Assembly: GCA_003224175.1 (NCBI GenBank)
Contig: QHYQ01000199.1
Location: 1 to 36,441 of the forward strand
Reading direction: 5' to 3'
Source of the DNA: Acidobacteriota bacterium
Lineage (GTDB): Bacteria; Acidobacteriota; Terriglobia; Acidiferrales; UBA7541
Length of the DNA: 36,441 nt
Both the position numbers and the translations under genes were made by a program. Of this stretch, positions 4,085-32,584 are shown in pieces (position 1 is the first letter of the stretch; every line of letters begins with the position of its first letter). Below the pieces are notes generated by a model. It searched no databases. It was not told where the DNA came from and was given only the letters and a program-made list of their open reading frames with translations.

Positions 4085-6772
4085 GTGGCGCTCCTACCCA
4101 GCCAACGTCTCGGCCCTTACGAAATCCTCTCAGCCATCGGTGCGGGCGGGATGGGAGAAGTGTATCAGGCACACGACACCAAGCTCGGGCGCGACGTGGC
4201 GATCAAAGTCCTACCGGAAGCTTTTGCGCACGATCCCGAACGGTTGTCCCGCTTTCAGCGCGAAGCAAAGATGCTGGCTTCACTGAATCACCCCAACATC
4301 GCGACGATCTACGGGCTGGAGCAGTCCAACGGCACACATTATCTGTTGATGGAGTTGGTTTCCGGCGAGACATTGGCCGAGCGCGCCAAGCGAGAAGGGC
4401 CGGTACCCATTGAAGAAGCACTGAAAATCTCCGTCCAGATTGCGGAGGCGCTGGAAGCGGCGCACGAGAAAGGCATCATTCACCGCGACCTGAAACCCGC
4501 CAACGTAAAGGTCACGCCAGAGGGCAAGGTCAAGGTGTTGGACTTCGGCTTGGCGAAGGCGTTCGAAGGTGACGCAGCAAGCGACGATCCTTCAAATTCA
4601 CCTACGCTGAGTCTGGCGGCGACGATGCACGGCGTGATCTTGGGGACAGCAGCGTACATGAGCCCGGAGCAGGCACGTGGCAAAGCAGTCGATAAGCGGA
4701 CCGACATTTGGGCCTTTGGTTGTGTGCTGTACGAGTTGTTGACAGGCAAGCAGGCATTCGATGGCGAAAACATAACCGACATTCTGGCAGCAGTGGTGAA
4801 AACGGAGCCCGACTGGCAGGCTCTGCCCGCAGCAACTCCAATGCAGGTACGCGCGCTGCTGCGGCGCTGCTTGCAAAAAGACAAGACGCTGCGCCTTCAA
4901 GCCGCGGGCGATGCCCGCATCGAAATTCACGAGGCTCTGGTCGCTCCTGCGGCGGAACCGGCTGCCGCAGCGAAAGGCATCCGCGCACTCGGGCGGCGAC
5001 CGCTAATCCTCAGCTCGGGCAGCTTGCTAATAGGTCTGGCGATCGCGAGCCTAGCCACTTGGAGTCTGAAGCCCACGCCTGCGCTTGTGGCACGGCCTCT
5101 AACGCGCACGGTGATAAACCTGCCTCCCGGCGACCGGCTCGCCGGCTTCGACCAGCCAGCCGTGGCCATATCGTCCGACGGGAGCCATCTGGCTTATGTC
5201 GCTATTCGGGGCAGCACCCAGCAGCTTTATCTGCGAGGAATGGACAGTTTGGAGGCGAAGCCGATTCCTGGCACGGAGGATGCCGCGAATCCCTTCTTCT
5301 CCCCCGACAGCCGATGGCTGGGCTTTTTCGCAGGGGGAAAGCTGAAGAAGGTCGCTGTAGCGGGAGGTGCAGCGGTTACGCTGGCAGATGTTTCATTCGC
5401 TCGTGGAGCCGCCTGGAGTAGCCTGAGCGCGATCATTTTCGCACCCGCAACAGTTTCCGTGCTGCAGCAAATACCCGATGCCGGAGGCACCTCGCGGCCG
5501 GTGACTCATTTCGATAAAGCGGAGCCCACTCATCGTTGGCTGGAGTTTTTACCTGACGGAAAATCGGTATTCTTTGCCGGAGGTCCTTCTACTGGCAACT
5601 GGGCGACGGCAAAAATCGCAGTTCAATCGCTCAGGACCGGCGAACGGCGGGAACTCATTCAAGGCGGAACCAATCCCCGGTATGCACTTTCCGGGCACCT
5701 GCTCTACGCCCAGGCCGGAACGGTGATGGCGGCGCCCTTCGATGCCCAGCGGCTACAACTGACGGGCGCTGCGGTTCCCGTAGTGGAAGATGTTCTGCAA
5801 AGCTCCGGCACCGGCGCCGCCCAATACAGCATTTCCACGACGGGATCGCTGGTCTACGTTCCGGGAGGTGTTCGTGCACTTTTTCGCAAGCTGGTATGGG
5901 TGAGCCGCAACGGAGTCGAGCAGCCGATCGCAGCTCCTCCTCACGTTTATTACTATCCGCGACTTTCGCCCGACGGTCGCCGGATTGCGGTTACGGTAGT
6001 GGAGGAGGAACAGCAACTTTGGCTCTACGACCTCGCCCGGGACGCACTAAGCCGATTCTCGTTTGGGGTCCATCTGAACCAAAATGCGGCCCGGACGCCG
6101 GATGGCAAGCGGATAGCGCTTGCAGCGAGCAAGGAAGGACCGATTCAAGTTTTCTGGCAACCATCGGATGGCAGTGGCGGGCTCGAGCAGCTTACCACCA
6201 GCGAGAATGTTCGGTTTCCGATGTCGTTTTCTCCAGACGGACAATTGCTGGCCTTCAGTGAAGTCAATCCCAACACCGGCATGGACATCGGGATTCTACG
6301 GCTCAATGACCGCAAGGCCGAACCGTTCATCCAGGCGCCGGGTAATCAAACCGCAGCCGCCTTTTCGCCGAACGGACGCTGGCTGGCCTACAGCTCGGAT
6401 GAATCGGGCCGCCCGGAAATTTACGTCCAACCTTATCCCGGCCCCGGCGGAAAATGGCAAATCTCGACCGAAGTTGGTCAAGAGCCGGTTTGGAATCCCA
6501 ACGGCCGGGAGTTGTTCTACGGCAGCAGAGACAAAATGATGGCTGTGGACGTAGCGACACAGCCAAGTTTTTCGGCTGGGAAACCAAGGATGCTGTTCTC
6601 CTCGGGACTCTATCTGCCGAGTTCCAATGGGTTCCAATTCTACGATGTATCTCCCGACGGCCAGCGATTTTTGATGATCAAGCAAAGCGAAGAAGCTGCG
6701 GCGCTGACGCAAATCGTAGTGGTGCAGAACTGGTTCGAAGAATTGAAGCGTCGCGTGCCCACCGGCAAGTAA
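4085..6772 (+). CDS. Ser/Thr protein kinase with C-terminal WD40-like (PD40/TolB-type) beta-propeller
   Basis: 895 aa; HRDLKPANVKV, DFGLAK, AYMSPEQARG; TM segment; repeated FSPDGxxLAF/SPDGRRIA motifs. Confidence 0.95.
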   Translation: MALLPSQRLGPYEILSAIGAGGMGEVYQAHDTKLGRDVAIKVLPEAFAHDPERLSRFQREAKMLASLNHPNIATIYGLEQSNGTHYLLMELVSGETLAERAKREGPVPIEEALKISVQIAEALEAAHEKGIIHRDLKPANVKVTPEGKVKVLDFGLAKAFEGDAASDDPSNSPTLSLAATMHGVILGTAAYMSPEQARGKAVDKRTDIWAFGCVLYELLTGKQAFDGENITDILAAVVKTEPDWQALPAATPMQVRALLRRCLQKDKTLRLQAAGDARIEIHEALVAPAAEPAAAAKGIRALGRRPLILSSGSLLIGLAIASLATWSLKPTPALVARPLTRTVINLPPGDRLAGFDQPAVAISSDGSHLAYVAIRGSTQQLYLRGMDSLEAKPIPGTEDAANPFFSPDSRWLGFFAGGKLKKVAVAGGAAVTLADVSFARGAAWSSLSAIIFAPATVSVLQQIPDAGGTSRPVTHFDKAEPTHRWLEFLPDGKSVFFAGGPSTGNWATAKIAVQSLRTGERRELIQGGTNPRYALSGHLLYAQAGTVMAAPFDAQRLQLTGAAVPVVEDVLQSSGTGAAQYSISTTGSLVYVPGGVRALFRKLVWVSRNGVEQPIAAPPHVYYYPRLSPDGRRIAVTVVEEEQQLWLYDLARDALSRFSFGVHLNQNAARTPDGKRIALAASKEGPIQVFWQPSDGSGGLEQLTTSENVRFPMSFSPDGQLLAFSEVNPNTGMDIGILRLNDRKAEPFIQAPGNQTAAAFSPNGRWLAYSSDESGRPEIYVQPYPGPGGKWQISTEVGQEPVWNPNGRELFYGSRDKMMAVDVATQPSFSAGKPRMLFSSGLYLPSSNGFQFYDVSPDGQRFLMIKQSEEAAALTQIVVVQNWFEELKRRVPTGK

Positions 6773-8839: not shown

Positions 8840-9223
8840 GTGCGTAAGGTGTGTGCTGCATTGACCGTTGCTGTATTTGTGTTGGCTTTGGGCGCCGTGG
8901 CATTTGCGGCGACGCAAACAATTTCTGGTCAGCTCATCGACCAGACCTGTTACAAGATGAACAGCTCGAACAGCGGCGTTGACCATAAAATGCCTAGTGG
9001 CGATGTTAAGGACTGTGCGATAACTTGTGCGAAGATGGGTCGGCCTCTAGCACTCCTTACCGCCGATGGCAAGGTTTACACCGTGACGGGCGACCTCGCT
9101 GCGAATAACAATGCGAAGCTCGTGCCTCACATGAGCCACAAAGTTGAGCTCACCGGCGACGTTACCGAAACGGGTGGCACGATGACGATTGCCGCCACCA
9201 GTCTGAAGATGATTAGCAAGTAG
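8840..9223 (+). CDS. secreted hypothetical protein
   Basis: GTG start at 8840 preceded by GGAGG; signal peptide MRKVCAALTVAVFVLALGAVAFA; mature TQTISGQLIDQTCYKM. Confidence 0.8.
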   Translation: MRKVCAALTVAVFVLALGAVAFAATQTISGQLIDQTCYKMNSSNSGVDHKMPSGDVKDCAITCAKMGRPLALLTADGKVYTVTGDLAANNNAKLVPHMSHKVELTGDVTETGGTMTIAATSLKMISK

Positions 9224-9809
9224 GCTTGTTCGCCGGAGCGACGCGGTAGAGAGTTCCGACTCCAAGCCCCATTGCCTTTGCAATTTTCTTCCAACTAAGC
9301 CCCTGAGCACGCAACTGGGCAATCTGCCCGGCGTCCACGTTCGCTCGTGGTCTGCCGATGCGGGTTCCCTTGGCTTTCGCGTTCCGCATGCCAGCTTTGA
9401 CACGCTCGCGGATTAGCTCGCGCTCAAACTCAGCTATCGCACCAATGATATTGAACATCAGCCGTCCGCTGGCCGTGCTCAGGTCCAAGTTATCGCTCAG
9501 GGACACGAACGCAATTCCCAGCGACTCAAACTCGGCCAGCGCGTTCACAAGATGCCGCAGAGAGCGGGCAAAACGGTCCAGCTTCCAGACCAATACCACG
9601 TCAAACTTTCTCCGCTTAGCGTCAGCCATGAGACGGTCTAGCTCGGGACGCTTGTCTTTAGCTCCCGAAATACCGATGTCCAGGTAGGAATCTACGAGAA
9701 GCCATCCGCGAGCCTGAGCGAATTGCTCAAGATCGCGAGTCTGTAGGTTCACATCTTGGCCGTGGTTGGTTGTTGAGACTCTGGCATAGATCGCCACTCT
9801 CGGGCTCAT
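9213..9809 (-). CDS. serine recombinase/resolvase
   Basis: 198 aa; YARVSTTNHGQDVNLQTRDL, VWKLDRFARSLRHLV, C-terminal HTH (SWKKIAKAMGLGVGTLYRV). Confidence 0.95.
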   Translation of the reverse strand: MSPRVAIYARVSTTNHGQDVNLQTRDLEQFAQARGWLLVDSYLDIGISGAKDKRPELDRLMADAKRRKFDVVLVWKLDRFARSLRHLVNALAEFESLGIAFVSLSDNLDLSTASGRLMFNIIGAIAEFERELIRERVKAGMRNAKAKGTRIGRPRANVDAGQIAQLRAQGLSWKKIAKAMGLGVGTLYRVAPANKPTC

Positions 9810-10033
9810 CGTCGGCCTGCCCTCGGCTTTGGTCCGGGATGCTGCGCGGCCTTCACCCTACGACCTTTGGCGATATCGGCCTGAATCCAAAGCCAGAGCG
9901 TCCGGCCATTCGGCATCTTGATGGCTTTCGACGCCTTGATCTTGCCATCCGCTAGCCAGCGGTTCAGCGTCCTGAAAGATACGCGCATTTTCGCGGCAGC
10001 CGTGCGGGTGCTGTACGTTCTTTTCGTCTTCAT
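9806..10033 (-). CDS. small HTH DNA-binding protein coupled to the recombinase
   Basis: MKTKRTYSTRTAAAKMRVSFRTLNRWLADGKIKASKAIKMPNGRTLWLW; ATGA overlap with recombinase start. Confidence 0.7.
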   Translation of the reverse strand: MKTKRTYSTRTAAAKMRVSFRTLNRWLADGKIKASKAIKMPNGRTLWLWIQADIAKGRRVKAAQHPGPKPRAGRR

Positions 10034-10082
10034 CTTCCGTAGCCTCGCTAGATTGAGCATCAGCAATACACACATAGCGGCC

Positions 10083-10605
10083 TCAGACGGCCAGTAGCTC
10101 GACTTCGAGTTTCATCAGTGCATCGCGGACGTTGTTCCGCGAGTCTTTCGCAAGCCGCGCTAGGTCTAGCTAGGCCATCGGTGGAGTTACAGGTAAAGAT
10201 AAACACGGTATTCGGCGGGAATGCGGTCGCGTCCAGTTTACTCAGTAGAGCTAACTGTGCGGCGGGTGTCATCCGGTCGGCTTCGTCACAAAGCACGACG
10301 TGGAATCCGCCGGGAGCGAACGGCAGATAGTGGCAATCGTGGCAGGCTTTTTCGATTGCTTCCACGGTGCACTTTTGACTTGGGATATGGTGCAATTCTC
10401 CGCGAATCTGGATGCAGAGCGCTTGCGCCATGCTGGTTTTGCCGACACCTGATGGCCCGACAAAAAGCCATGCTGACGGGTATGGCTGAGCCGCAAACCT
10501 ACCGAGAATGCGCTTCGGCTTTTCCAGTCCTACAAATTCAGCAATCGTTCGCGGCCTGTACTTCTCCGCGAGCGACTGTGGGAATGGCAGAGTAGGCGCG
10601 CTCAT
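10083..10605 (-). pseudogene. clamp-loader (RFC/DnaX)-like AAA+ ATPase with internal deletion
   Basis: LAEKYRPRTIAEFVG, GPSGVGKTSMAQAL, VVLCDEADRM; frame breaks after STDGL and an RFC-like C-terminus (LDLARLAKDSRNNVRDALMKLEVELLAV-stop) continues in another frame. Confidence 0.8.
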
Positions 10606-11459
10606 CGCGCGCCCCCCTGAATGTAGTCGGCGGCCTTTTGCGCTTGAGACGCCGCGAAGACAACCATGCGCGAATCAGACTTGAGCACGTCTATCCACGA
10701 CTTGAGATAAGCCGCGGAGTTAGCCAGTGTTCTGCGCTCGATGCCCGCAACACCCGCGAGCATCGCGGCTCCCATTTCCGCGATTAGTTCCTCTTTGGAG
10801 TAGGACTCAGAGCCGAATGTGTTTAGCTTCTCTATGCCTTCGCGCCCGATGCGGGACGGATGGCCTGTAGAATGTGTCAATTCATGGAACAGCGTCGAAT
10901 AGTATTCCTCGGCTAATGTGAACGCATTGCGCGACGGCATCCCTACCGTGTCAGTGGATGGTCGATACCATGCGCGCGCGTCTTGCTCGATTGCGGGCGG
11001 ATTCGGCATTCCAGCAACAATGCGCTCGCATTCCTCGATGGGATTGATAACGCGCTCTGAGCCTGGAACCTTGATACCCTCGCATTGCTCAACATTGAAA
11101 ACAGTGTAATAGCGCAAGATGGCCGAAGTCTTGGCGACGCTCTGGCCGTCCGCGTCTTCAGTTTCGTACTTGTCTATTTTCCAGAAGACGACCTTGGAGC
11201 CGTGCTCGCCACGTCGGACGTTTCCGCCCTGTTCGGTAGCTTGCTTATAGGTGAGCCAATACGGTGAGCCGTACCCTCGGGACGCGAGCAGGAATACGTT
11301 AATGCCGCGATATTCCCGCTTGCTGACCAGATTCCTCGGAATCTGCGTAGTCCAGGGCCGATGCCACGGCGCTACACCTGATTCCAATTGCTTGATGATC
11401 TGTTCGGTTACGATCTGATAGACGGAAGAGTGTTGCGGTATGCTGGATGCAGCTTGCAT
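10602..11459 (-). CDS. ArdC-like antirestriction protein (ssDNA-binding domain plus zincin-like metallopeptidase)
   Basis: Start chosen at MQAASSIPQHSSVYQIVTEQII; APWHRPWT, RGINVFLLASRGYGSPYWLTYKQA, LFHELTHSTGH. Confidence 0.9.
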   Translation of the reverse strand: MQAASSIPQHSSVYQIVTEQIIKQLESGVAPWHRPWTTQIPRNLVSKREYRGINVFLLASRGYGSPYWLTYKQATEQGGNVRRGEHGSKVVFWKIDKYETEDADGQSVAKTSAILRYYTVFNVEQCEGIKVPGSERVINPIEECERIVAGMPNPPAIEQDARAWYRPSTDTVGMPSRNAFTLAEEYYSTLFHELTHSTGHPSRIGREGIEKLNTFGSESYSKEELIAEMGAAMLAGVAGIERRTLANSAAYLKSWIDVLKSDSRMVVFAASQAQKAADYIQGGAR

Positions 11460-11531
11460 AGGAGCTAGTCCTCCAATGTGAGTTAGGCTCTGTCGGATGT
11501 TGCAAGCATTCGGCGGAGCCGTTTTTACTTC

Positions 11532-11569
11532 TGTCACATCATATGACACAATAGCCCGAAGCGTGTCAA
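11532..11569 (-). promoter_or_regulatory. promoter with overlapping inverted repeat upstream of the ArdC-like gene
   Basis: Minus strand TTGACA (11569-11564), 17-bp spacer, weak -10 TCATAT; TGTCA-N7-TGACA at 11532-11548. Confidence 0.4.
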
Positions 11570-11771
11570 GAGAAATCCGCAACGCCAGCAAAATAATTTG
11601 ATTTGCTGCCGATTTGCGGAGGATTTTACGCGGACTTTGCAGAGCTTCCGACGAGCGACGCTGAATCCGAAAATGTCGCTGAGTTTAGGCTTCCGCCAGC
11701 CGGGTGGCCTTTCTATAGCTGACGCGGGGATGTTTGCTAGTAGTGCAGTTTGAAATTTATGGCGTCGAAGA

Positions 11772-14338: not shown

Positions 14339-15329
14339 CTACAAGACCTTGATCAAATCCACCCTGTAAGTCTTTGCTTCGTTGCTACTGGGTAATGCCC
14401 GATAAACGGCATTTTCTGAAACTGGGAATCGGCGGGAAAGCCACTCCAGCATCGTTCTCAGGTACACATCTCCCTCTTTGCTGATGTGTAGCTGTGGCTG
14501 ACTCATACCCGAGTTCCGGCGACCCGGGCGCAATCCCACAAAGCACCCCGCATCCCGGCTCCGGCGAAACCGGTATGGGTCGTCCACCGTGAGAACGTAG
14601 GCCAACGCAATGAGTGTTCCTACTCCCTTCACCTGCTTGAGCAGGGCCACCTGGGGATAGACTTCCTTGGCGATTTGCTCGATCTTCCGGTCGTATTCCG
14701 CGATCCGCTCGTTTAACGATTCGATTTCTGCGAACAGCGGATCTAAGGCATCCCGCAACTCCTGGCTCAGTCCTTGGGCCACTTCCCGATTCATTTTCTG
14801 GGTGCCACATTTCGGCAGCCGCTCCCCATACGATTTCGTTAATCCGCGTACCGTGTTCACCAACGCCGTGCGCGCCCACCGACCAGTCCTGCTCGAGCGC
14901 GGATGACCGTCAGGTCGATTTGTGCTTTGGCACTACGATGTGCGCCGGACCCAACAAGCCCGGGTCGATTCGGGCGAGCCGCGCCAGTGTCCGAGCATCG
15001 AATTGATCATCTTTCCGACTACTGTCCCCGATCAGTCGCACGTTGCGCGCGTGAGCGACGATCACTTCGTGCCCCAACCGGCCCAACTGCCGGCTTACCC
15101 AAGGCGAATGGGTTCCCGTTTCTAGCGCGATCCGACTGCGCGGGATCCTGCCGAAGACTTCCTCGATTCCTTTCGGTGTCGTCGGTAGGTTGTGCTCCCC
15201 AATCACTTCGCCCGATTCATTCAAAATGCAGTAATGGCTGAAGCGGTCTCCCAGATCCAATCCGATGGTTAGCTGCTGATCTTTGAAATTCTCGATTCTG
15301 TCCATCGCGACAGTGCTAATCTTCTTCAT
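14339..15329 (-). pseudogene. IS110-like transposase with frameshifts and replaced C-terminus
   Basis: N-part LTIGLDLGDRFSHYCIL...ALETGTHSPWVSRQL (14910..15329); C-part LVNTVRGLTKSYG...CFVGLRPGRRNSGMSQPQLHISKEGDVYLRTM (14339..14863); linking RARAGLV segment in a third frame. Confidence 0.9.
14401..14430. repeat. dispersed repeat copy B
   Basis: gataaacggcattttctgaaactgggaatc. Confidence 0.5.
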
Positions 15330-15330
15330 A

Positions 15331-15402
15331 GCCGGTCTCCTTTATCTTGCGCCTTGAGCGCGTCGATCATTGGGAGCGTATCGCATCCCGCCGGAGACCG
15401 GC
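15331..15402 (-). other. inverted repeat in IS110-like 5' leader covering the RBS
   Basis: GCCGGTCTCC (15331-15340) and GGAGACCGGC (15393-15402), perfect 10-bp arms; the minus-strand arm next to the ATG contains GGAGA. Confidence 0.65.
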
Positions 15403-15413
15403 CTTCTCATCCC

Positions 15414-15448
15414 ATCTGAGAAACGGGATTTTCGGTAACTGGCTTTTC
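15414..15448. repeat. dispersed repeat copy C
   Basis: atctgagaaacgggattttcggtaactggctttt. Confidence 0.6.
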
Positions 15449-15475
15449 ACCCTTAGGTTCCTGCTGCCGTGGTTT

Positions 15476-15784
15476 TCAAGCGGCGCACTCAGCCAGCCAA
15501 CCTTCCAAAACTTCCTCGTGACCGGACGGGATTGACCGGAAAGCAAGGCCCATGCCCTTGTCCGGTAACGCATAAACCACCTCACCGTCCGCGGAGAATT
15601 CCCTTCCATCGTACGTGATTCTCAAGCTCACCGTTGCTCGTGCAGGAAGAGGGGTCGGTGTCCTCACAAAGCACCCAAAGCGACTAAGCTGTCCGGTTCC
15701 GGCCAAGAGGCGTTGGCCTGATGTATCGGTCAGCTCAGCTATGCCCCCAACAAAGGAATAGCGCGGCGTGCGGCGACGTTCCAT
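15476..15784 (-). CDS. PilZ-domain protein
   Basis: ERRRTPRYSF start motif, LSRFGCFVRTPTPLPARATVSLRI, GMGLAFRSIP. Confidence 0.85.
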   Translation of the reverse strand: MERRRTPRYSFVGGIAELTDTSGQRLLAGTGQLSRFGCFVRTPTPLPARATVSLRITYDGREFSADGEVVYALPDKGMGLAFRSIPSGHEEVLEGWLAECAA

Positions 15785-16358
15785 CGTTGGCTAACCGAAG
15801 GCCCCCAACGAATTCTCGGCGACGTCGTTAGGGTATTGCTACACAGGTTTCGCCACAGCGTGTTCAATCAGGACTCATTTACGACATAGCGCGATTGAGA
15901 AGCTGATGATTCGGGGCATGCTTTTCGGCGGGTTCAAAAAATGCCTCTAACACAAGCGCGGGTTGAAGGTCCTGCACTCTTCGGGTCTACTCGAGCGCCT
16001 TGGGCTGGATCGATTCCATTTCAGGCCTCACCTTGGGGACGGTGCCAAGAAAAATAAGTGCTCGAGTCTTTGCAGCTCCCTCGCCAACTCGCCCGCCTTG
16101 AAAGGCCAGGACTTACGCAAGCCCCTGCTGCACAAATGGCCACCTAATTCGCCTTTTTTGGCAGCGGCTTAGCTGCTTAATTCATGAGGGCTGAGATTTT
16201 AGTTGGAGAGACAGTTGGTCGGGAGAGATTGCGCGATCAGAGGTCGAGCAGGGCGAGAGTATGCGAGCCAAGAGCGGGCAGGCGACGAGCTGAGAGGTTT
16301 TGGGCGCGGCTCCGCAGGGACAGTCTGTGGAAAGCTGAGTTCGGGGCAAGCGGTCAGG

Positions 16359-17385
16359 TCAACTGCTGTTGACGGCGAAGGCGACGGAGCGGAAGAAGTT
16401 CTGGAAGGGCCAGCCGCTGGCGAGGTGAAAGCGAACACAGCGGGCAGTCTGTCGAACGCGAGCGCCGATTTTGAAGAGTTGGGCACGCAGCGTTTCGATC
16501 TGGGCCGAGCGCCAGGGCTGGGGCAACTGCAAGCGGAACAGGTTGACCAGGTTGTAGGCGAAGCCGTGCAGGAGCAGGCGGAAGGCGTTGGCCAGGAAGC
16601 GGTGACAGCTCAAGCGGTCGGCGCGGAAACCGTTCTTGAACTCCTCGATGCGGTTCTCACATTCGCCGCGATCGTTGTAGAAAGCGAAGACCTTCGAGGC
16701 ACGACCCGGGCAGTTGGTAATCACGAAGCGCAGGTTGGTTCCGACGGCGGTGTGTTCGGCCTTGTAGCAGATGCGGCGCTGGCGCGGCCAACTGCGGGCG
16801 CGATGGCGGAAGCTGGAAAAGCCGCGCTGTGGGAGTTGCGTACGACGATAGCGCCGCTTCAACTGTTTCTGCCGAGATTCGGCGCGCTGTTGGAAAACGC
16901 AGTTAGCGGGGATGCCGAAGGCGTATTGCATGCCGAAGAACTCGCAAAACTCGTACAGGAGCGGCAGAGCGAAACCGGCATCGCCGCGGAGCTTGATCAG
17001 CACGCCAGGAAAAGCGGCCTCGAGTCGCGGCACCAGCCGCAGCAGCATCGGGACAATGCGGGCATGACTGGAGGCATTGCCAGGTCGCAACCGCGCGGCC
17101 AGCAGACATCCGGTGTGACGCTCGAAGATCAGCATGGGGTGGTACATATGCTGGCCGTAGGCGCCGTTGAAGATGCTGAGTTGCTGCTGGCCATGCGTGG
17201 GATCGTCGGTGGAGTCGATATCGAGCAGGATCTCGCCGCGCTGGCGAACCTGCTCGCCACAGAGGCGAATGAACTGATCGAGTAGGGCGTCGTTCAACCG
17301 CACCAGGTCGCGGGCGGAAGGCGCATTCTCCCAGCGGCTGAGGGTGGGCTGGGAGCCGAGTATGTAATTCCAGAATCGCGAGCCC
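16359..17385 (-). pseudogene. IS1380-like transposase with disrupted N-terminus
   Basis: LDIDSTDDPTHGQQQLSIFNGAYGQHMYHPMLIFERHTG...LIKLRGDAGFALPLLYEF...YNDRGECENRIEEFKNGF; ILGSQPTLSRWENAPSARDLVRL readable upstream of the annotated Met, with a further frame change. Confidence 0.85.
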
Positions 17386-23700: not shown

Positions 23701-23868
23701 AAAACGCGCTATGCGAACGTGGCGGCGGTTTTGCACGCCGGTTAGGCAACGACTTGCAGAAAGGCTATTCGACATGATCTATACGAATTTGACTCCACTT
23801 GGCTCCACTTGAAACTGAAGGGGGCGGCAACGCCGCCAAAACACAAGACTTGTGGATTGGGGATACAA

Positions 23869-23891
23869 TTCGATTCCCATCGCCCGCTCCA
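23869..23891 (+). other. tRNA 3'-end-like att core remnant
   Basis: TTCGATT (T-loop) CCCAT CGCCCGC T CCA in canonical spacing, but no 5' tRNA half upstream. Confidence 0.55.
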
Positions 23892-23950
23892 GAAATCACG
23901 ATGTTTCAATTGCCCTTACACGGCTAGCCTACTTGAATCCAGCTTGAAAA

Positions 23951-24000
23951 TGGACCGTTTTGGACCCCAGATGGACCCCGCTGGATTCAATTGGACCCCA
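23951..24000 (+). repeat. five TGGACC-type direct repeats at 10-11 bp period
   Basis: TGGACC at 23951, 23961, 23972, 23992 and TGGATT at 23982. Confidence 0.75.
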
Positions 24001-24048
24001 GCGATTTGTAGGGGAAACCGGCCAGTCGTTGAATGGCCTGCTCTGGGA

Positions 24049-24369
24049 CTAGACCAGCGCGACCTCGCGGTCGAAATTGGGCTTTTTCTCCGCATGAAGC
24101 TTGAGGGCAATGCCGCAGACCGCAGCGATGCGTTCCAGCATCGTGAGCGAATGGCCCGTGTATTCGGCGTCCTCCAGGCGAGCAATCACGGACTGTGTCG
24201 TGCCCACCTTCTTCGCTAGTTCGGTCTGAGTCAACCCCGCATCCTCCCTCATCTCGCGCACCAGTAAGGCTAGGTCAATCTGGTGCAAGGTCCGCGTCAA
24301 GGCCTTACGGTACGTTGCGCTCTTGCGCGCACGCTGTTCAACAATTTCACTGTGCTTGTCGCGCTTCAT
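24049..24369 (-). CDS. XRE-family HTH antitoxin, HigA-type
   Basis: LVREMREDAGLTQTELAKKVGTTQSVIARLEDAEYTGHSLTMLERIAAVCG; 4-nt overlap with toxin. Confidence 0.92.
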   Translation of the reverse strand: MKRDKHSEIVEQRARKSATYRKALTRTLHQIDLALLVREMREDAGLTQTELAKKVGTTQSVIARLEDAEYTGHSLTMLERIAAVCGIALKLHAEKKPNFDREVALV

Positions 24370-24773
24370 AGTCCCAACTCCTTAAGGATAGCTTCCCGTT
24401 CTTTCTGCGATCCCACGTAATGGTTCCGGTATTTCATCCAGAGCTTCCTGAGCTGTTCTGCCTTGGTAATCTCGCCCGGTGGAGTCTGTTGTGTCTTCTT
24501 CTGAAATCCTGACGTAATCACGATCAGCATTCCCGGCTGATAGAAGAAGAGGACCCGGAAAATCCGGTCGAATTGTTTGACTCTTAGCTCGAATATGTCA
24601 TTCGCGAGCTTGTTGACGAATTTTCCCTGCATTCGGTTGCCGCAGACGCGGAGGCGTTCGATAAACGCGTCTATGCGGGCGGCAGCCTTATCATCCAGCG
24701 AATCCACGAAGTCTCGGGCCGGTGCCCGCCCGTTCGGTAGCTCCACGTACTCAATCGTGAATTCGCCTCTCAA
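24366..24773 (-). CDS. RelE/HigB-type toxin
   Basis: ELPNGRAPARDFVDSLDDKAAARIDAFIERL, ANDIFELRVKQFDRIFRVLFFY, TSGFQKKTQQTPPGEI; TTG start. Confidence 0.92.
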   Translation of the reverse strand: MRGEFTIEYVELPNGRAPARDFVDSLDDKAAARIDAFIERLRVCGNRMQGKFVNKLANDIFELRVKQFDRIFRVLFFYQPGMLIVITSGFQKKTQQTPPGEITKAEQLRKLWMKYRNHYVGSQKEREAILKELGL

Positions 24774-24779
24774 TTGTCA

Positions 24780-24809
24780 AATTATCGCATAATTGCTATA
24801 TATCGTCAA
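24780..24809 (-). promoter_or_regulatory. HigBA promoter with overlapping operator palindrome
   Basis: Minus strand TTGACG (24809-24804), 17-bp spacer, GATAAT (24786-24781); palindrome AATTAT-CGC-ATAATT at 24780-24794. Confidence 0.65.
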
Positions 24810-24920: not shown

Positions 24921-25247
24921 ATGCCACGAAAACTTGTTAAGCGGACACAGTGGTCACTCGAACACGGTCCGGAGCGGGATTCTACTGGCAGCAGGACCGT
25001 CGCGATCTTCTTTGACGCCGACGATTCCGACCGCCGAGCAGAAGTCAGCATTGATACACGAACTTTAGGGCAATTCGGGGATCTGCCCTGTGCCTCCCGA
25101 AAATTCTGTGCAGCTCACGAGTCTCCAAACGAACCGCAAAGTCTCAAGCGGTTTGCAGCCCTTATTGAGTCAGGTGAACGAAATTCACACGATGCAAGCT
25201 TGTGCAACAGAGCAGAGTTCAGACGCAGATTGCAAAGGCCCGAGTAG
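24921..25247 (+). CDS. hypothetical protein
   Basis: MPRKLVKRTQWSLEHGPERDSTG...; 108 aa, no recognised domain. Confidence 0.3.
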   Translation: MPRKLVKRTQWSLEHGPERDSTGSRTVAIFFDADDSDRRAEVSIDTRTLGQFGDLPCASRKFCAAHESPNEPQSLKRFAALIESGERNSHDASLCNRAEFRRRLQRPE

Positions 25248-26310
25248 AGGCACGCGTAGCGTGGTGGATTCGGGCTTTTTCAGGCAGCCTGTCGTTCGTA
25301 GCGGTGGTGCAGGCCACCGACATGCGGCACGCCACGACGGATCCCATTTCCGGCGGCTGAATCGCTCGTGGCTCCGGTGAGTCCTTCCCCAAGGAAAGAT
25401 GTGTTCTCGACCGGTGATAGTAATCGAAATACGAACGAAGGGTTCGCCGTAGCGAGCTTTCGTGGAACACGACCACATGATCGAGACATTCGCGTCGAAT
25501 CGACCCAATCACTCGTTCCACATAGGCTCGCTGCCAAGGTGAGCGCGGTGCAGACAGAACTTCGCAGATGCCCATGTCTCGCACCCGTTCTCGGAATTCC
25601 ATGCCAAAGATAGCATCGCGGTCGCGCAGCAAGTAGCGCGGGAGCTGATCAAAGGGAAATGCCTCCCGCAGTTGCTGTGCGGTCCACTCCGCGGTCGGGT
25701 GGGCGGTCACATTGAAGTGCAGGATGCGACGCCGGTCATGGGCCAACACTAGAAACACGTAAAGGACCTGAAAACGGATCGTGGGCACGGTGAAGAAATT
25801 GATGGAGACCAGTTGCTGAGCGTGATTCTCCCGGAATGTGCGCCAGGTCTGAGACGGCGGTTTGCGGCAGCGCACCAGGTATTTGCTAACGCTGGTCTCA
25901 CCGATGTCGATGCCGAGCTTGAGCAGTTCGCCGTGGATGCGGGGTGCACCCCAACTGGGATTCTCCCGGCACATCTTGCGGATCAGATCTCGGACCTGGC
26001 GCGAAATGAGCGGTCGTCCGGGTTGGCCGTGCCGCACCTTCCACGTCCAGAAGAGCCGAAAGCCGGCACGATGCCAAGCAATGACCGTTTCTGGCTTGAC
26101 GATGGCCAGCGCCGAGCGCCAGTCGCGCCAGAGGCGGGACAGGCAGATCCACAACAGGCGGTCCACTGGAGTCAATTTCGGCCGTTTTACTGCGGACCTC
26201 TGAAGCACGCCGATTTGGTGGCGCAGAGCCAGGTTCTCGAGCTGAAGGGCAGCACGGGAACGGAAGATCCAGGACAGAGCTGCGAGGAATGTCGTGAGAG
26301 AAATGAGCAT
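25219..26310 (-). mobile_element. integrase-core (rve) DDE transposase, IS3/IS481-like
   Basis: LQLENLALRHQIGVLQRS, PSWGAPRIHGELLKLGI, VLAHDRRRILHFNVTAHPTAEWTAQQLREAFP, YVERVIGSIRRECLDHVVV. Confidence 0.92.
25238..25280 (+). terminator. Rho-independent-type terminator hairpin
   Basis: GCCCGAg...CACGC-gta-GCGTG...tTCGGGC followed by TTTTT. Confidence 0.55.
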
Positions 26311-26678
26311 AGGCGAGAATTATAGAATTATGAAGGGTATATAACCTCCATCCGCTCAGATATTTCGAGATTTTCGAGAGGCACAATGGCGCACTGCGGG
26401 GGCGGAGAAGGGCCCAATAGGTTCGATTCAACCGGCACGCTGGTTCAATGGGTGGATCGCGGCGAAGTACCCGATAGGATGATGGCATCGCACTTCACGA
26501 ATGGCGTGGTGGACCGCACCCGACCGCTTTGTCCCTACCCCCAGGTGGCCGCCTACAAGGGAGGCGGCAGCACGGATGATGTGGCGACCTTCGTTTGCAA
26601 AGCGCCGTAAGGCGTGTAATACAACTGCGGCGTTATCGCGTTTCGGCGATATAATCGCCCCGATATCAGGTGGACGCA

Positions 26679-26912
26679 ATGCGGACCGCATGCGTTATCG
26701 GCTTAATTCCCATTTCCCTCGTGCTTGCTCCCCTGAGTTATGCCCAACACGGCGGCGGGCACATGGGCGGCGGGTTCTCTGGCCGAGGTACTTTTTCTTC
26801 CGGACATTCTTCAGTTCGGGTTCGTACGGGCGTCGTTCGCCAAAAGTATGCTGGTCGCGCCTATTACCTGCAGGGCGTTGCTAACAGTTGCGTCTTAGGT
26901 CCTTACTCATGA
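26679..26912 (+). pseudogene. truncated small secreted Gly/Ser-rich protein
   Basis: MRTACVIGLIPISLVLAPLSYAQHGGGHMGGGFSGRGTFSSGHSSVR then short abrupt end. Confidence 0.45.
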
Positions 26913-29392
26913 ACACCGGCTGGTCTGGAAAGTGGAGCGGTGAGGTTAGAAGGATTCTCTTTCTCATACTTATAGTTCCAGCCGCGTATGGGCAGACGCG
27001 CGTCCCGGAGCAACCCTCAAACCCTTCCGGGCCGCCCGCCGCAACGGCGCGCGCAATCATTGATCAATATTGCATACCCTGCCACAACCAGAGGCTGAAA
27101 ACAGCGGGCTTGATGCTGGACAAACTGGATTCCAGCGAGGTTCGCAAGGACGCCGAGGTTTGGGAAAAAGTGGTGCGCAAACTTCGGGCCGGGATGATGC
27201 CTCCGTCGGGTTTGCCGCGTCCCACTCCGGCCATCTACGAGGCGCTGATCACATCGATCGAAAACGAACTCGACCGCGACACCGTAACCCGCCTGCCTCC
27301 CCCGGGTCTGCACCGCCTCAATCGCGCCGAATACGGGAATGCGATTCGTGATCTGCTAGCTCTGGAAATCGATCCAGCGAAGTTTCTGCCGTCGGACGAT
27401 TCGACGCGCGGGTTTGACAATATCGCAGGTGCCTTATCGTTGTCGCCGGCGCTGCTGGAAGGATTCACGTCGACTGCGGCGAAAATCAGCCGTTGGGCCA
27501 TTGGCGATGTTACAGAACCGTCGTTGTTCACCTACCGCGTGCCGTCGGACACCTCTCAGGACTACCATCTCGAGGGCCTGCCTTTCGGAACGCGCGGCGG
27601 ATTGATTGTGCAGCATGAGTTCCCAGCTGACGGTGACTACGTCTTCAAGCTATTCCCCATCAACCAGGGCCTCATGGACAACAATCGCGCATTTGGAGAA
27701 ATAACGGGGGAAAAACTGGAACTCTTGGTGGATGGCGAGAGGGTACACCTCTACGATTGGGATAAGGATCTGGCGCGCGGCTCCGCGGTGCACGCCGGCA
27801 CAGCCGACGTTCATTTTCATGTCAGCGCAGGCGTGCACGGGGTAGGCGTCACTTTCCTTGCCACTCAGTTAGCGCCGGGTAGCGACCTGAATCAGCACTT
27901 TCTCCGGAGCACGATTGAAACAGGTGGTCTGCCTGGATTTAAGTTCTATCCTCATGTAGGCAAGCTTGAGATCCTCGGCCCCTTCAATCCGGCCGGCGGC
28001 ACGGATTCGCCCAGCAGGCGGAAGATCTTCGTGTGTCATCCCGCCAGTACGACGGAAGAGACCGAGTGCGCGGAGGAGATCGTAAATACGCTGGCCCGCC
28101 GCGCCTTCCGCCGGCCAGTGACCGACCAAGATACAGAGTTGCTTATGGGGTTCTACCAGCAGGGTCGCAAGGAGGGGAATTTCGATACCGGGATCGAAAG
28201 GGCGCTGCAGCGCATCCTCGCCGACCCAGAATTTGTGTTCCGCAAGGAAGCCGAGCCTCCTGGCGTTCCCGTAGGCGGTACGTGGAGGATCAGTGACCTG
28301 GAGCTGGCGTCGCGTCTGTCTTTCTTTCTTTGGAGCAGCATCCCTGATGACGAGCTGATCACGCTGGCAAGCCAAAATAAACTACATGATTCTTTAGTGC
28401 TCGATCAACAGGTGCGGCGGATGCTTGCTGATCCGCGTTCGGACCAACTCGTGGTCAACTTCGCCGGGCAGTGGCTGAACTTGCGCGCGTTGCAGTCCTG
28501 GGCTCCGACGGCGGCGTTATATCCGGATTTCGACGACAATCTGCGACTGGCGATGCGAAGGGAGACCGAACTGTTCATAGGCAGTATCGTGCATGAGGAC
28601 CGCAGTGTAATCGATCTGCTCGACGCGAATTATACGTTCGTGAACGAGCGGTTGGCGAAACACTATGGAATGCCAAATATCTACGGGAGCAACTTCCGGC
28701 GAGTGGAACTTTCGCCGCAATTTGATATGCGCCGAGGACTCCTCGGTCAAGCGAGCCTTCAGACCATATCGTCGCAACCCCAGAGGACCTCTCCGGTGGG
28801 GCGCGGCAAGACCATCCTGCAGGTTTTCCTCGGTGTAAGCCCTCCCGATCCGCCTCCCAACGTGCCGGCGTTAAAGGAGCAAGCCAGCGCGGTCCACGCC
28901 GGCGGCAAGCCGACCATGCGCCAGCAGATGGAGATGCACCGCAAGGTGGAGCCTTGCGCCAGTTGTCACAAGATCATGGACCCAATCGGCTTTTCCATGG
29001 AGAACTTTGACGCCATCGGAAAGTGGCGCATCACGGATGATGGAAGCCCTATCGATGCCTCCGGCGTACTCGTAGACGGCTCCAAACTGAACGGGGTAAA
29101 GGGACTGCGGGAAGCGCTTCTGCGCTACTCGCCCCAGTTTGTCCGCGTCATCGTCGAGAAGCTGCTGATTTACGGTTTGGGCCGCGGAACGGATTATTAC
29201 GATATGCCTTTGATTCGCTCCATCGTGCACGAGGCGGAACCGAGCAACTACCGCTTCTCATCCCTGATCCTCGGCGTGGTAAAAAGCGACGCGTTCCAAA
29301 TGAATCAAAAGCTTCCGGCCGGTTCCCAGACCCAGGCTGTCTTGGATCTTCGGGCGGTCCATAATATGGGAAGGAGGAGAAAATGTTTGTAA
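26909..29392 (+). CDS. DUF1592/DUF1588/DUF1585-type cytochrome c domain protein
   Basis: Signal peptide; [18 protein letters not shown] and [26 protein letters not shown] (CxxCH); [17 protein letters not shown]; start 26909 or 26888. Confidence 0.93.
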
Positions 29393-30762
29393 CCAAGAAA
29401 CACCTATCCCGGCGCACCGTCCTCCGCGGAGCCGGAGCCGCGTTGGCGCTGCCACTGCTGGACTCGATGGTGCCGGCGCAGACGCCTCTAGTCAGGACGG
29501 CGGCCAATCCAAAGACGCGCTTCACCGGTATCTTTGTTCCGCATGGTGCGGCGCCAGGATGGTGGGTGCCGGAGGCGGGAGGTCCGGGCGAACCGAAGTC
29601 GCAGCCGGGCAGCAAGAATTTCAAGTATCCGATGATCTTGGAGCCGCTGGAACCGTTCCGGGATCGCACGGTGATTCTGAGCGGGCTGTGGTCGAAGTCG
29701 GCCGAGCCTCCTCCAGGACAGACTGGCGCCGACCATTGGGTCGCGGCGGCCTTTCTGTGCGCCAATAAACCGAAAAAAACCACCGGCGCCGACATCTACG
29801 ATGGCACAACCATCGATCAGATCATCGCCCAGAAGATCGGCCAGGAGACGCTGTTGCCCTCTCTTCAGCTGGCGCTGGAGGACCCCGGAGCCAACTCGAG
29901 CAATTGCGGGGAGGGTTATAGCTGTACTTACTCGAACACCATCTCGTGGGCCGCGCCCACGCAGCCGCTGCCCATGGAGCTGGATCCGCAAGCGGCCTTC
30001 GAGCGCTTATTTGGCGCCGGCGGCACGGCGACGGAGCGAGCGGCTCGCAGAGAGCAAGATCGCAGCATCCTGGATTCGGTCACCGAAAGCTTGGCTCGAT
30101 TCAAGAAGGACCTTGGTCCGAGCGATCGCTCCCGGCTCGATGAGTACGAGACGGACATTCGGGAGCTGGAACGGCGGCTGGAGATCGCCAAAAAGGCCGG
30201 TGGCGCCGTATCGACCGAAGGTGTAGTCGTCCCGGCCGGCGTGCCGGAGTCGTTCGACGACCATGTGAAGCTGCATTTTGATCTACAAACGCTGGCCTTC
30301 CAGGCCGACATTACACGGGTTTCCACAGTTCTGTATGCTCGCGACTTAACTGCCCGGTCTTATCCGGAGAGCGGCGTCAACGGCGGCTTTCATGGGATGT
30401 CGCATCACGCGGAGAATCCCGATACTATCGCGCAGTACGCGAAGATCAATCGGTACCACGTGAAGTGCCTGGCGTATTTCGTCGACAAGCTGAAGAGGGC
30501 GCAAGACGGAGACGGCAGCTTGCTGGACCATTCGCTGATTATATATGGCAGCAACATGGGAGACTCCAATCAACACTTGCACTACGATGTGCCTCACGTG
30601 CTGATTGGCGGAGCGTCTGGGCAACTCAAAGGGAATCGTCATGTGGCTTATCTGAGCAAGACCGTTACGACAGGGAATCTTCTGTTGAGCATTCTGGACC
30701 TGTACGGGGTTCACCAGGACAGCATCGGCGACAGCACCGGAGCGTTGCCGAATCTTGTGTAA
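29383..30762 (+). CDS. DUF1552 domain protein with Tat-type signal
   Basis: KKHLSRRTVLRGAGAALALPLLDSM; FVPHGAAPGWW; 10-nt overlap with upstream gene. Confidence 0.93.
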   Translation: MFVTKKHLSRRTVLRGAGAALALPLLDSMVPAQTPLVRTAANPKTRFTGIFVPHGAAPGWWVPEAGGPGEPKSQPGSKNFKYPMILEPLEPFRDRTVILSGLWSKSAEPPPGQTGADHWVAAAFLCANKPKKTTGADIYDGTTIDQIIAQKIGQETLLPSLQLALEDPGANSSNCGEGYSCTYSNTISWAAPTQPLPMELDPQAAFERLFGAGGTATERAARREQDRSILDSVTESLARFKKDLGPSDRSRLDEYETDIRELERRLEIAKKAGGAVSTEGVVVPAGVPESFDDHVKLHFDLQTLAFQADITRVSTVLYARDLTARSYPESGVNGGFHGMSHHAENPDTIAQYAKINRYHVKCLAYFVDKLKRAQDGDGSLLDHSLIIYGSNMGDSNQHLHYDVPHVLIGGASGQLKGNRHVAYLSKTVTTGNLLLSILDLYGVHQDSIGDSTGALPNLV

Positions 30763-30789
30763 CGGCTGACGGAGGAAGATTAAAGAAAC

Positions 30790-32544
30790 ATGCGTGTTCG
30801 CCTGCCAATCATGGCTTGTTGTGCAGCGCTGTTGATTTATCGGTTGGCATCTGGAGCTGCAAATAGCCCCGTGGCTGACGCCGCCATGAGAGGCGATAAG
30901 GCCGCGGTGCGATCTCTGCTCGCTCAAAAGTCGGACGTAAACACTCCCCAGGCCGACGGAGCCACCGCGATCCAGTGGGCTGCGTACAAAGACGACCAGG
31001 AGATGGCGGACCTGTTGATCACCGCGGGCGCAAATGTGAACACGCCGAATCGCGAAGGCGCCACTCCCCTTTACTTGGCCTGCATCAACGGTAGCGCAAC
31101 CATGATCGGCAGACTCTTGAAGGCTGGCGCCGATCCGAACGAGCGCGGGCCGCAGGGAGAAACTCCCCTTATGCTGGCTGCCCGAAACGGGAACGTGGAC
31201 GGGATCCAGGTATTGCTAGATCAGAAAGCGGATGTCAACGCAAAGGATACGCTCCGCGGAACCACAGCGCTGATGTGGGCGGCCGAGCAGGCGCATCCTG
31301 CCGCCGTTCAGCTACTGATCGAGCATGGAGCGGACGTTCTGGCTGCGTCGAACCCAGATACCAGGAATGCCAAGAATAATCTTGCCGACACGGTGACCAA
31401 ACGATTGAATTCCAAACTAGGCATTCTAGGCCAAGCCCGAGCGCGCGCAAACAACAAGAGTGCGCCGGGAGCTTCGCCCGTTCCGGCCGTCGCGGGTGCG
31501 CAAAATCCGCCGGAGCCGCTTGGAGAGGATGCTGAGGCTTTCCTTGCTCCCTCGGAAAAAACGGATGGCGGTGGTTTAACTCCTCTGGTGTACGCAGCCC
31601 GCGAAGATTGCCTGGAGTGCGCCAAGATTCTGGTACAGGCGCGCGCCGATGTGAATCAGCGAACCCATTACGGGTGGACTCCCCTGCTCGTGGCGACGCA
31701 AAACCGGCACTACAAACTGGCGGCGTATTTGTTGGATAACGGCGCGAATCCGAACAGCGCGAATAACGGCGGCTGGACGCCCCTGTATCTTGCGACTGAT
31801 AACCGCAATATTGAGAGCGGCGACTATCCGGTGCGCACGCCGGATATGGACCATTTGGACTACATCAAGTTGCTCTTGGCCAAGGGTGCGCAAGTGAACA
31901 CCCGAATCTGCGGAATGGAATCGACGCTGGCGAAATGCATTGGCGACAGCACCGAGACGCGAAATAATTTCACCATGCAATGGCTGTTCGAAGACGGCGC
32001 GACGCCCTTCCTGCGCGCAGCGCAATCCGGCGATGTCGCCTTGATGAAGCTATTGCTGGACCACGGTGCGAATCCAAAAATCTTTACGGCGCATAACGTA
32101 ACGCCCTTAGCCGTATCTTCGGGCATCGGATGGGTGGAGGGTGTTACCTTCGAATGGTCGGAGGCCGAGAGCCTGGATGCTGTGAAGATGTGTCTAACTC
32201 TGGGTATCGATCCGAACGTGGCCGACGACGAAGGACGCACCGCGTTGCACGGCGCGGCCCACAAAGGAAGGACCGAAGTGATTCAACTCCTAGTGGATCA
32301 TGGCGCTAAGTTGGACGCGCACGACGGCGGGAGCCGGGACAGCATAAATGGTGCGTTGCTCGGAAAAACATGGATTCCGCTGGATTGGGCGCGCGGCCTG
32401 GTCCGAGTCGGCGTGCAATCTGCCATCCCACACCCTGAGGCCGAAAGGCTTCTCATCAAATTGATGACCGAGCGGGGTCTTGCCATCCCACCTCCGCCCG
32501 CTTCCTCCATTTGCCTAACCAAAGGTTTCAACGGCTGCCAGTAA
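30790..32544 (+). CDS. secreted ankyrin-repeat protein
   Basis: Repeated motifs such as EGATPLYLACINGSATMIGRLLKAGADPNERGPQGETPLMLAARNG. Confidence 0.95.
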   Translation: MRVRLPIMACCAALLIYRLASGAANSPVADAAMRGDKAAVRSLLAQKSDVNTPQADGATAIQWAAYKDDQEMADLLITAGANVNTPNREGATPLYLACINGSATMIGRLLKAGADPNERGPQGETPLMLAARNGNVDGIQVLLDQKADVNAKDTLRGTTALMWAAEQAHPAAVQLLIEHGADVLAASNPDTRNAKNNLADTVTKRLNSKLGILGQARARANNKSAPGASPVPAVAGAQNPPEPLGEDAEAFLAPSEKTDGGGLTPLVYAAREDCLECAKILVQARADVNQRTHYGWTPLLVATQNRHYKLAAYLLDNGANPNSANNGGWTPLYLATDNRNIESGDYPVRTPDMDHLDYIKLLLAKGAQVNTRICGMESTLAKCIGDSTETRNNFTMQWLFEDGATPFLRAAQSGDVALMKLLLDHGANPKIFTAHNVTPLAVSSGIGWVEGVTFEWSEAESLDAVKMCLTLGIDPNVADDEGRTALHGAAHKGRTEVIQLLVDHGAKLDAHDGGSRDSINGALLGKTWIPLDWARGLVRVGVQSAIPHPEAERLLIKLMTERGLAIPPPPASSICLTKGFNGCQ

Positions 32545-32584
32545 TTCTTCACCTGCTATTTTTGTCGCCTACGGGTTGGCTGCG

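Follow-up and report, generated by a model that had tools for sequence, protein, structure and literature searches.

Islands and decayed CIMEs are known to accrete in tandem at tRNA genes (PMC5704250; PMC4891358), and the arm-binding domains of tyrosine integrases are likewise established (PMC8138268). Divergent arm consensus sequences are also known among closely related phage integrases that share one attB (PMC3203893). Here, we analyzed a 36,441-nucleotide stretch of DNA from an Acidobacteriota bacterium (contig QHYQ01000199.1, hereafter called the window). Given these precedents, the site described here belongs to a known kind: it is a clear example of known island biology, with a notable scale and fixed geometry. 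All of the evidence is drawn from sequence, and the source genome is a fragmented metagenome-assembled genome (MAG). We consider it highly likely that a 23-bp core in the window is the attachment-site junction of two stacked tRNA-Gly(CCC) islands, here called elements A and B, and that the TGGACC words beside it are arm-type sites of the integrase of element B.

Results

The core matches the 3′ end of tRNA-Gly(CCC)

The feature on which the analysis centers is as follows.

23869 to 23891, plus strand: att core, T-loop to CCA of tRNA-Gly(CCC), an exact match to an aragorn-verified tRNA 3′ end in relatives

An earlier note on this DNA had recognized the layout of a tRNA 3′ end here, with no T-stem or 5′ half ahead of it, and would have abandoned the idea if no tRNA in the genome or in relatives ended in this sequence. 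In many relatives of the same family, an intact tRNA-Gly(CCC) ends in exactly the 23-mer TTCGATTCCCATCGCCCGCTCCA, for which shuffles gave a chance expectation of 0. Within the window, neither an intact tRNA nor an Rfam match was detected, no proper T-stem 5′ strand stands immediately ahead of the T-loop, and a T-arm-like fold spanning the junction was not significant (z = −1.05). The original description of the core therefore stands. In homologous elements (L054, L056, L161, and L175), the core is found as a direct repeat bounding the element.

The window constitutes contig C125 of a 5.6-Mb, 85%-complete MAG in 624 contigs. A search for further copies of TTCGATTCCCATCGCCCGCTCCA detected five exact copies in this genome, none of them within an assembled intact or recognized tRNA; an intact tRNA-Gly(CCC) gene is absent from the assembled 85%-complete MAG. 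Across the family, the first 22 bases of the core were present in 57 of 89 genomes, with a maximum of 14 copies, and the core was absent from 24 genomes sampled from the order and class outside this family. The exact tRNA-Gly(CCC) end occurs 14 times in G066 (8.8 Mb) and 9 times in G078 (8.1 Mb), and core copy number increases with genome size (Spearman’s ρ = 0.65, 50 near-complete genomes). Genome G078 also carries, at locus L170, two intact tRNA-Gly(CCC) genes with the same promoter-side flank, located 7.4 kb apart at 4473 and 11826.

Other sources of the core were considered and rejected. The two intact tmRNAs of the source genome end in CCCGCCTCCA and are thus not the source, and the ends of tRNA-Gly(GCC) and tRNA-Gly(TCC) contain three mismatches. 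The two tmRNA genes, on contigs G000:C130 and G000:C173 of the one MAG, differ from each other (tags ANTELALAA and ANNELALAA); possible readings are a mobile copy, a strain mix, or contamination. At L001/L050, L004/L052, and L005/L053, in the same genome, a longer portion of the tRNA 3′ half, starting near the anticodon loop, stands ahead of the core, which suggests elements that cross over at a more upstream position in the tRNA.

The left end of a HigBA-carrying element lies downstream of the core

The region to the right of the core contains the following features.

23919 to 23939, plus strand: CACGGCTAGCCTACTTGAATC, a subterminal inverted repeat that the L054 element carries at either end
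23951 to 23999, plus strand: left-arm array of element B, with TGGACC words at 23951, 23961, 23972, and 23992
24049 to 24369, minus strand: HigA-like HTH antitoxin, the first cargo of element B (Pfam HTH_31 and HTH_3)
24366 to 24773, minus strand: HigB-like toxin of the Gp49/DUF891 family (Pfam PF05973, 3.1e-20)
24774 to 24809, no strand assigned: last part of the element B block that can be detected; similarity to the complete element L054 ends here
25219 to 26310, minus strand: IS3/IS481-like transposase, located within element B or past its end (rve_3; IS3/IS481 models below curated cutoffs)

The block from 23869 to 24809, comprising core, array, and HigBA, is 86.8% identical by blastn to a region of locus L054 in genome G034, where it directly follows an intact tRNA-Gly(CCC). 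There it belongs to a complete 4.6-kb element that opens with the tRNA and its core and closes with a second core; between the two lie, in order, a TGGACC array, HigBA, some small genes, the gene for a tyrosine integrase, and a right arm that again carries TGGACC. The left and right (reverse complement) counterparts of CACGGCTAGCCTACTTGAATC in this element are CACGGCTAACCTACTTGAATC and CACGGCTAACCTATTGAATC, respectively. In a third genome (L168), the core-array-HigBA block is conserved at 90%. HigA is 95% identical and HigB 84 to 91% identical in L054 and L168, and in all three loci they lie ~341 bp and ~705 bp, respectively, from the core. The HigBA pair that the earlier note had placed beyond the repeats is accordingly present: a Gp49-like toxin gene followed by an HTH antitoxin gene, the arrangement of a putative type II HigBA system.

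The array itself is far denser than expected by chance. Four TGGACC words per 50 bp occurred in 0 of 300 simulated windows (maximum of 2), and any 6-mer reached four copies per 50 bp in only 1 of 200. The earlier note counted five repeats by including a TGGATT at 23982, which gives spacings of 10, 11, 10, and 10 bp. Spacing and nonrandomness hold, but the position of TGGATT is not conserved among related left arms, and the array is therefore best described as four words at +60, +70, +81, and +101 from the CCA rather than five equal repeats. When the array was searched for without the core in 89 genomes, six copies were found, each ~67 bp from a core; a reversed-array control search of the same 89 genomes returned 0 matches. 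The suggestion that the repeats are arm-type or accessory integrase sites, which was to be given up if TGGACC arrays never occurred beside integrases or att sites, is thus supported, given that the arrays adjoin both att cores and integrase-bearing elements.

Neither the remainder of element B nor the left end of element A was seen within the window. The end of element B is obscured by the IS-like gene at 25219 to 26310, which may have contributed to the loss of the remainder, and by a 6.15-kb block at 26411 to 32562 that encodes a PSD/DUF1587-1595 cytochrome gene, a DUF1552 gene, and an ankyrin gene. This block is 98% identical to G002:C133 9224 to 15365, and its flanks are unrelated on both sides, which suggests a recent transfer. 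A synteny search for an empty site led to the same G002 contig, which matches the 6.15-kb block only.

The right end of a different element lies upstream of the core

On the left, the sequence abutting the core contains two features.

23786 to 23868, plus strand: right, integrase-distal end of element A; its last bases, ...ACAAGACTTGTGGATTGGGGATACAA, abut the core
23791 to 23807, minus strand: the inverted arm-type words TGGAGCC and TGGAGTC of element A, 10 bp apart (detected by the word caller)

Positions 23786 to 23868 are 76 to 81% identical over ~80 to 84 bp to loci L033, L003, and L048, all three of which also adjoin a core; no similarity to these loci was detected further upstream than 23786. 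The TGGAGCC and TGGAGTC words recur in the right ends of L051, L063, L121, and L130. The best partner left arm for these words is that of L123, where the minus-strand integrase is truncated, and L051, whose right end is of the same type, has a related integrase start at the other end of its contig that is 53% identical to that of L123.

Because the downstream side is an L054-type left end and the upstream side is the right end of a different element, the core in the window joins two element ends. These two elements share one core and differ in arm words, the arrangement of tandem accretion. Comparable junctions, in which an A end, a core, and a B-type end follow one another, were found at L051 in the same genome and at L063. 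The earlier note had interpreted the site as the att scar of an element; it is a real att site, and the reading that we favor corrects the scar of one element to a junction of two element ends sharing one core.

Further upstream in the window, a serine resolvase, a small HTH gene, an AAA ATPase fragment, and an ArdC-type anti-restriction gene lie in a row at 9213 to 11591 and resemble a mobile-element module that belongs to element A or lies close to it. The interval from 14339 to 17303 contains an IS110-type transposase in two pieces (14339 to 14863 and 14910 to 15329) and a DDE_Tnp_1_4 transposase (16359 to 17303).

Arm words vary at a fixed distance from the core

Among 35 left arms, the second word starts 69 to 71 bp after the CCA in 34, in a search that allowed offsets of ~40 to 110 bp, and 11 different four-letter words are used; the compared sequences are related, and these counts are not independent events. 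The arm-word arrays in the set include TGGACCCC (four words, with an L054-type integrase), TGGACGCC, and TGGACGGT.

Repeated words were found on both sides within single elements. L054 carries TGGACC at both ends (the window shows the left arm of element B only), and 8 of 12 elements have an identical repeated word at their two ends, where 2.0 would be expected (P = 2e-4), with unrelated left-right arm pairs matching in 4.2% of cases. Three of the 12 adjacent-core intervals contain no shared word and one contains a weaker match only, and some intervals therefore hold decayed or composite elements. In elements with a right-end integrase, the right-arm words sit within the 3′ end of the integrase gene, such that the tail of the protein varies with the word (VDPSGPQ, LDAIGRQ, LDGIGRS, or LVPSGPN).

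Hand-called words were the same across 0 of 16 junctions (P = 0.04). An automated 6-mer test found the same word across 3 of 57, which is no lower than random (4.2%). Avoidance of equal words between neighboring elements is unsupported by the automated test and is not claimed here.

Integrases of the island family

No integrase was found in the window. The earlier note placed the integrase outside the window or regarded it as lost, and this can be refined: both ends that flank the core are integrase-distal, which accounts for the lack of an integrase near it, and the integrases of elements A and B would have been at their far ends, now off the contig or lost. A search for tyrosine integrases found one in the homologous complete element L054. 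Two layouts were observed across related loci. In one, the integrase lies at the right end, with its last codons ~23 to 50 bp before the core (L054, L056, L065, L069, and L175); in the other, it lies at the left end and is encoded on the minus strand (L052, with remnants in L056 and L123). At L123, a short minus-strand protein (4687 to 5070) directly inside the core has only the integrase-like N-terminal, arm-binding region and could be either a decayed integrase or a stand-alone arm-binding protein.

The L054 integrase contains PF00589 and a SAM-like domain, and the catalytic residues R222, K256, H323, R326, H349, and Y359 are invariant. Its best matches, in phage and plasmid records, are ~24 to 28% identical. 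An N-terminal beta-beta-beta-alpha domain is predicted with a pLDDT of about 80. Beyond the N-terminal half the full-length model is poor (pTM 0.38), and fold matches to the Tn1549 and lambda integrases are therefore taken as supporting only. Integrases paired with ACGC or ACGG words lack three to four residues near position 18 to 20 that those paired with ACCC words have, which we treat as a lead only.

Discussion

From sequence comparison, we read the identity of the core, two element ends, a homologous complete element with an integrase, a fixed core-to-arm geometry, and words that match at both ends of one element. In the model that we propose, two tyrosine-integrase islands would have inserted successively at the tRNA-Gly(CCC) 3′ end by tandem accretion, the 23-bp core, as the tRNA 3′ end, being duplicated on each insertion. 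The integrase-distal right end of element A would then lie left of the core and the integrase-distal left end of the HigBA-carrying element B right of it. The N-terminal domain of the B integrase may bind the distant TGGACC words, with the core-binding and catalytic domains binding and exchanging strands at the tRNA-derived core. Integration would restore an intact tRNA and leave a core at the far end, and HigBA, just inside the arm, may stabilize the element.

The presence of one core and no integrase in the window would also suit the att scar of a single element on the left, with original chromosome bearing incidental repeats and HigBA on the right. However, the right side is itself an element left end, which directly follows an intact tRNA in G034 and lies in arrays elsewhere, making a single scar highly improbable. 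An assembly chimera at the 23-bp repeat, falsely joining two element ends, might be suspected in a MAG of 624 contigs with five copies of the repeat; similar junctions recur in several genomes, and assembly k-mers usually exceed 23 bp, both of which leave this explanation scarcely credible.

A different question is whether the TGGACC array serves another protein, as an iteron or operator for an excisionase or for HigA autoregulation. The array and the 3′ end of higA are separated by ~50 bp, and the spacing of the array is iteron-like. Against this, the word changes between elements at a constant distance from the core, the word used in the left arm appears again in the right arm, within the integrase 3′ end and distant from HigBA, and most array-bearing elements among the fetched loci carry no relative of the HigBA in the window. 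We regard such a role as quite unlikely; judging by these sequence patterns, the TGGACC repeats are very probably docking (arm-type) sites of the integrase of one island.

The island family is an unusually large natural set for studying how integrases select the sites at which they dock. At least 35 left arms combine one core with a constant 70-bp spacing and use about 11 words, and several have a cognate integrase that is 45 to 96% identical to others, so that the arm-recognition code of an integrase family becomes directly testable. We tentatively raise the possibility, itself doubtful, of orthogonal docking codes, in which integrases share core and arm geometry and differ in arm words, each acting on its own element only; if so, islands at tRNA-Gly(CCC) could pile up without excising one another. 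tRNA-Gly(CCC) is also an island hotspot in Acidobacteriota, with core copy number rising with genome size.

As in tandemly accreted tRNA-targeted ICE/IME/CIME islands (PMC5704250), including the Klebsiella asn-tDNA islands (PMC4891358), a tRNA 3′-end core is repeated between successive elements, several elements occupy one gene, and decayed members lack an integrase; unlike those examples, the target here is tRNA-Gly(CCC) in an acidobacterial family, with up to 14 cores per genome. The integrases resemble lambda Int and Tn916/Tn1549 Int (surveyed in PMC8138268) in their catalytic residues, SAM-like core-binding domain, predicted N-terminal beta-beta-beta-alpha domain, and arm words flanking the core, whereas arm words here vary widely between elements sharing one core. 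A parallel to this variation is provided by the attP sites of Cluster K mycobacteriophages at a tmRNA attB (PMC3203893), where close integrases likewise use the same attB with different arm consensus sequences and candidate N-terminal residues. In contrast to those phages, the present system comprises stacked islands with 11 words in 35 left arms at a fixed core-to-arm distance.
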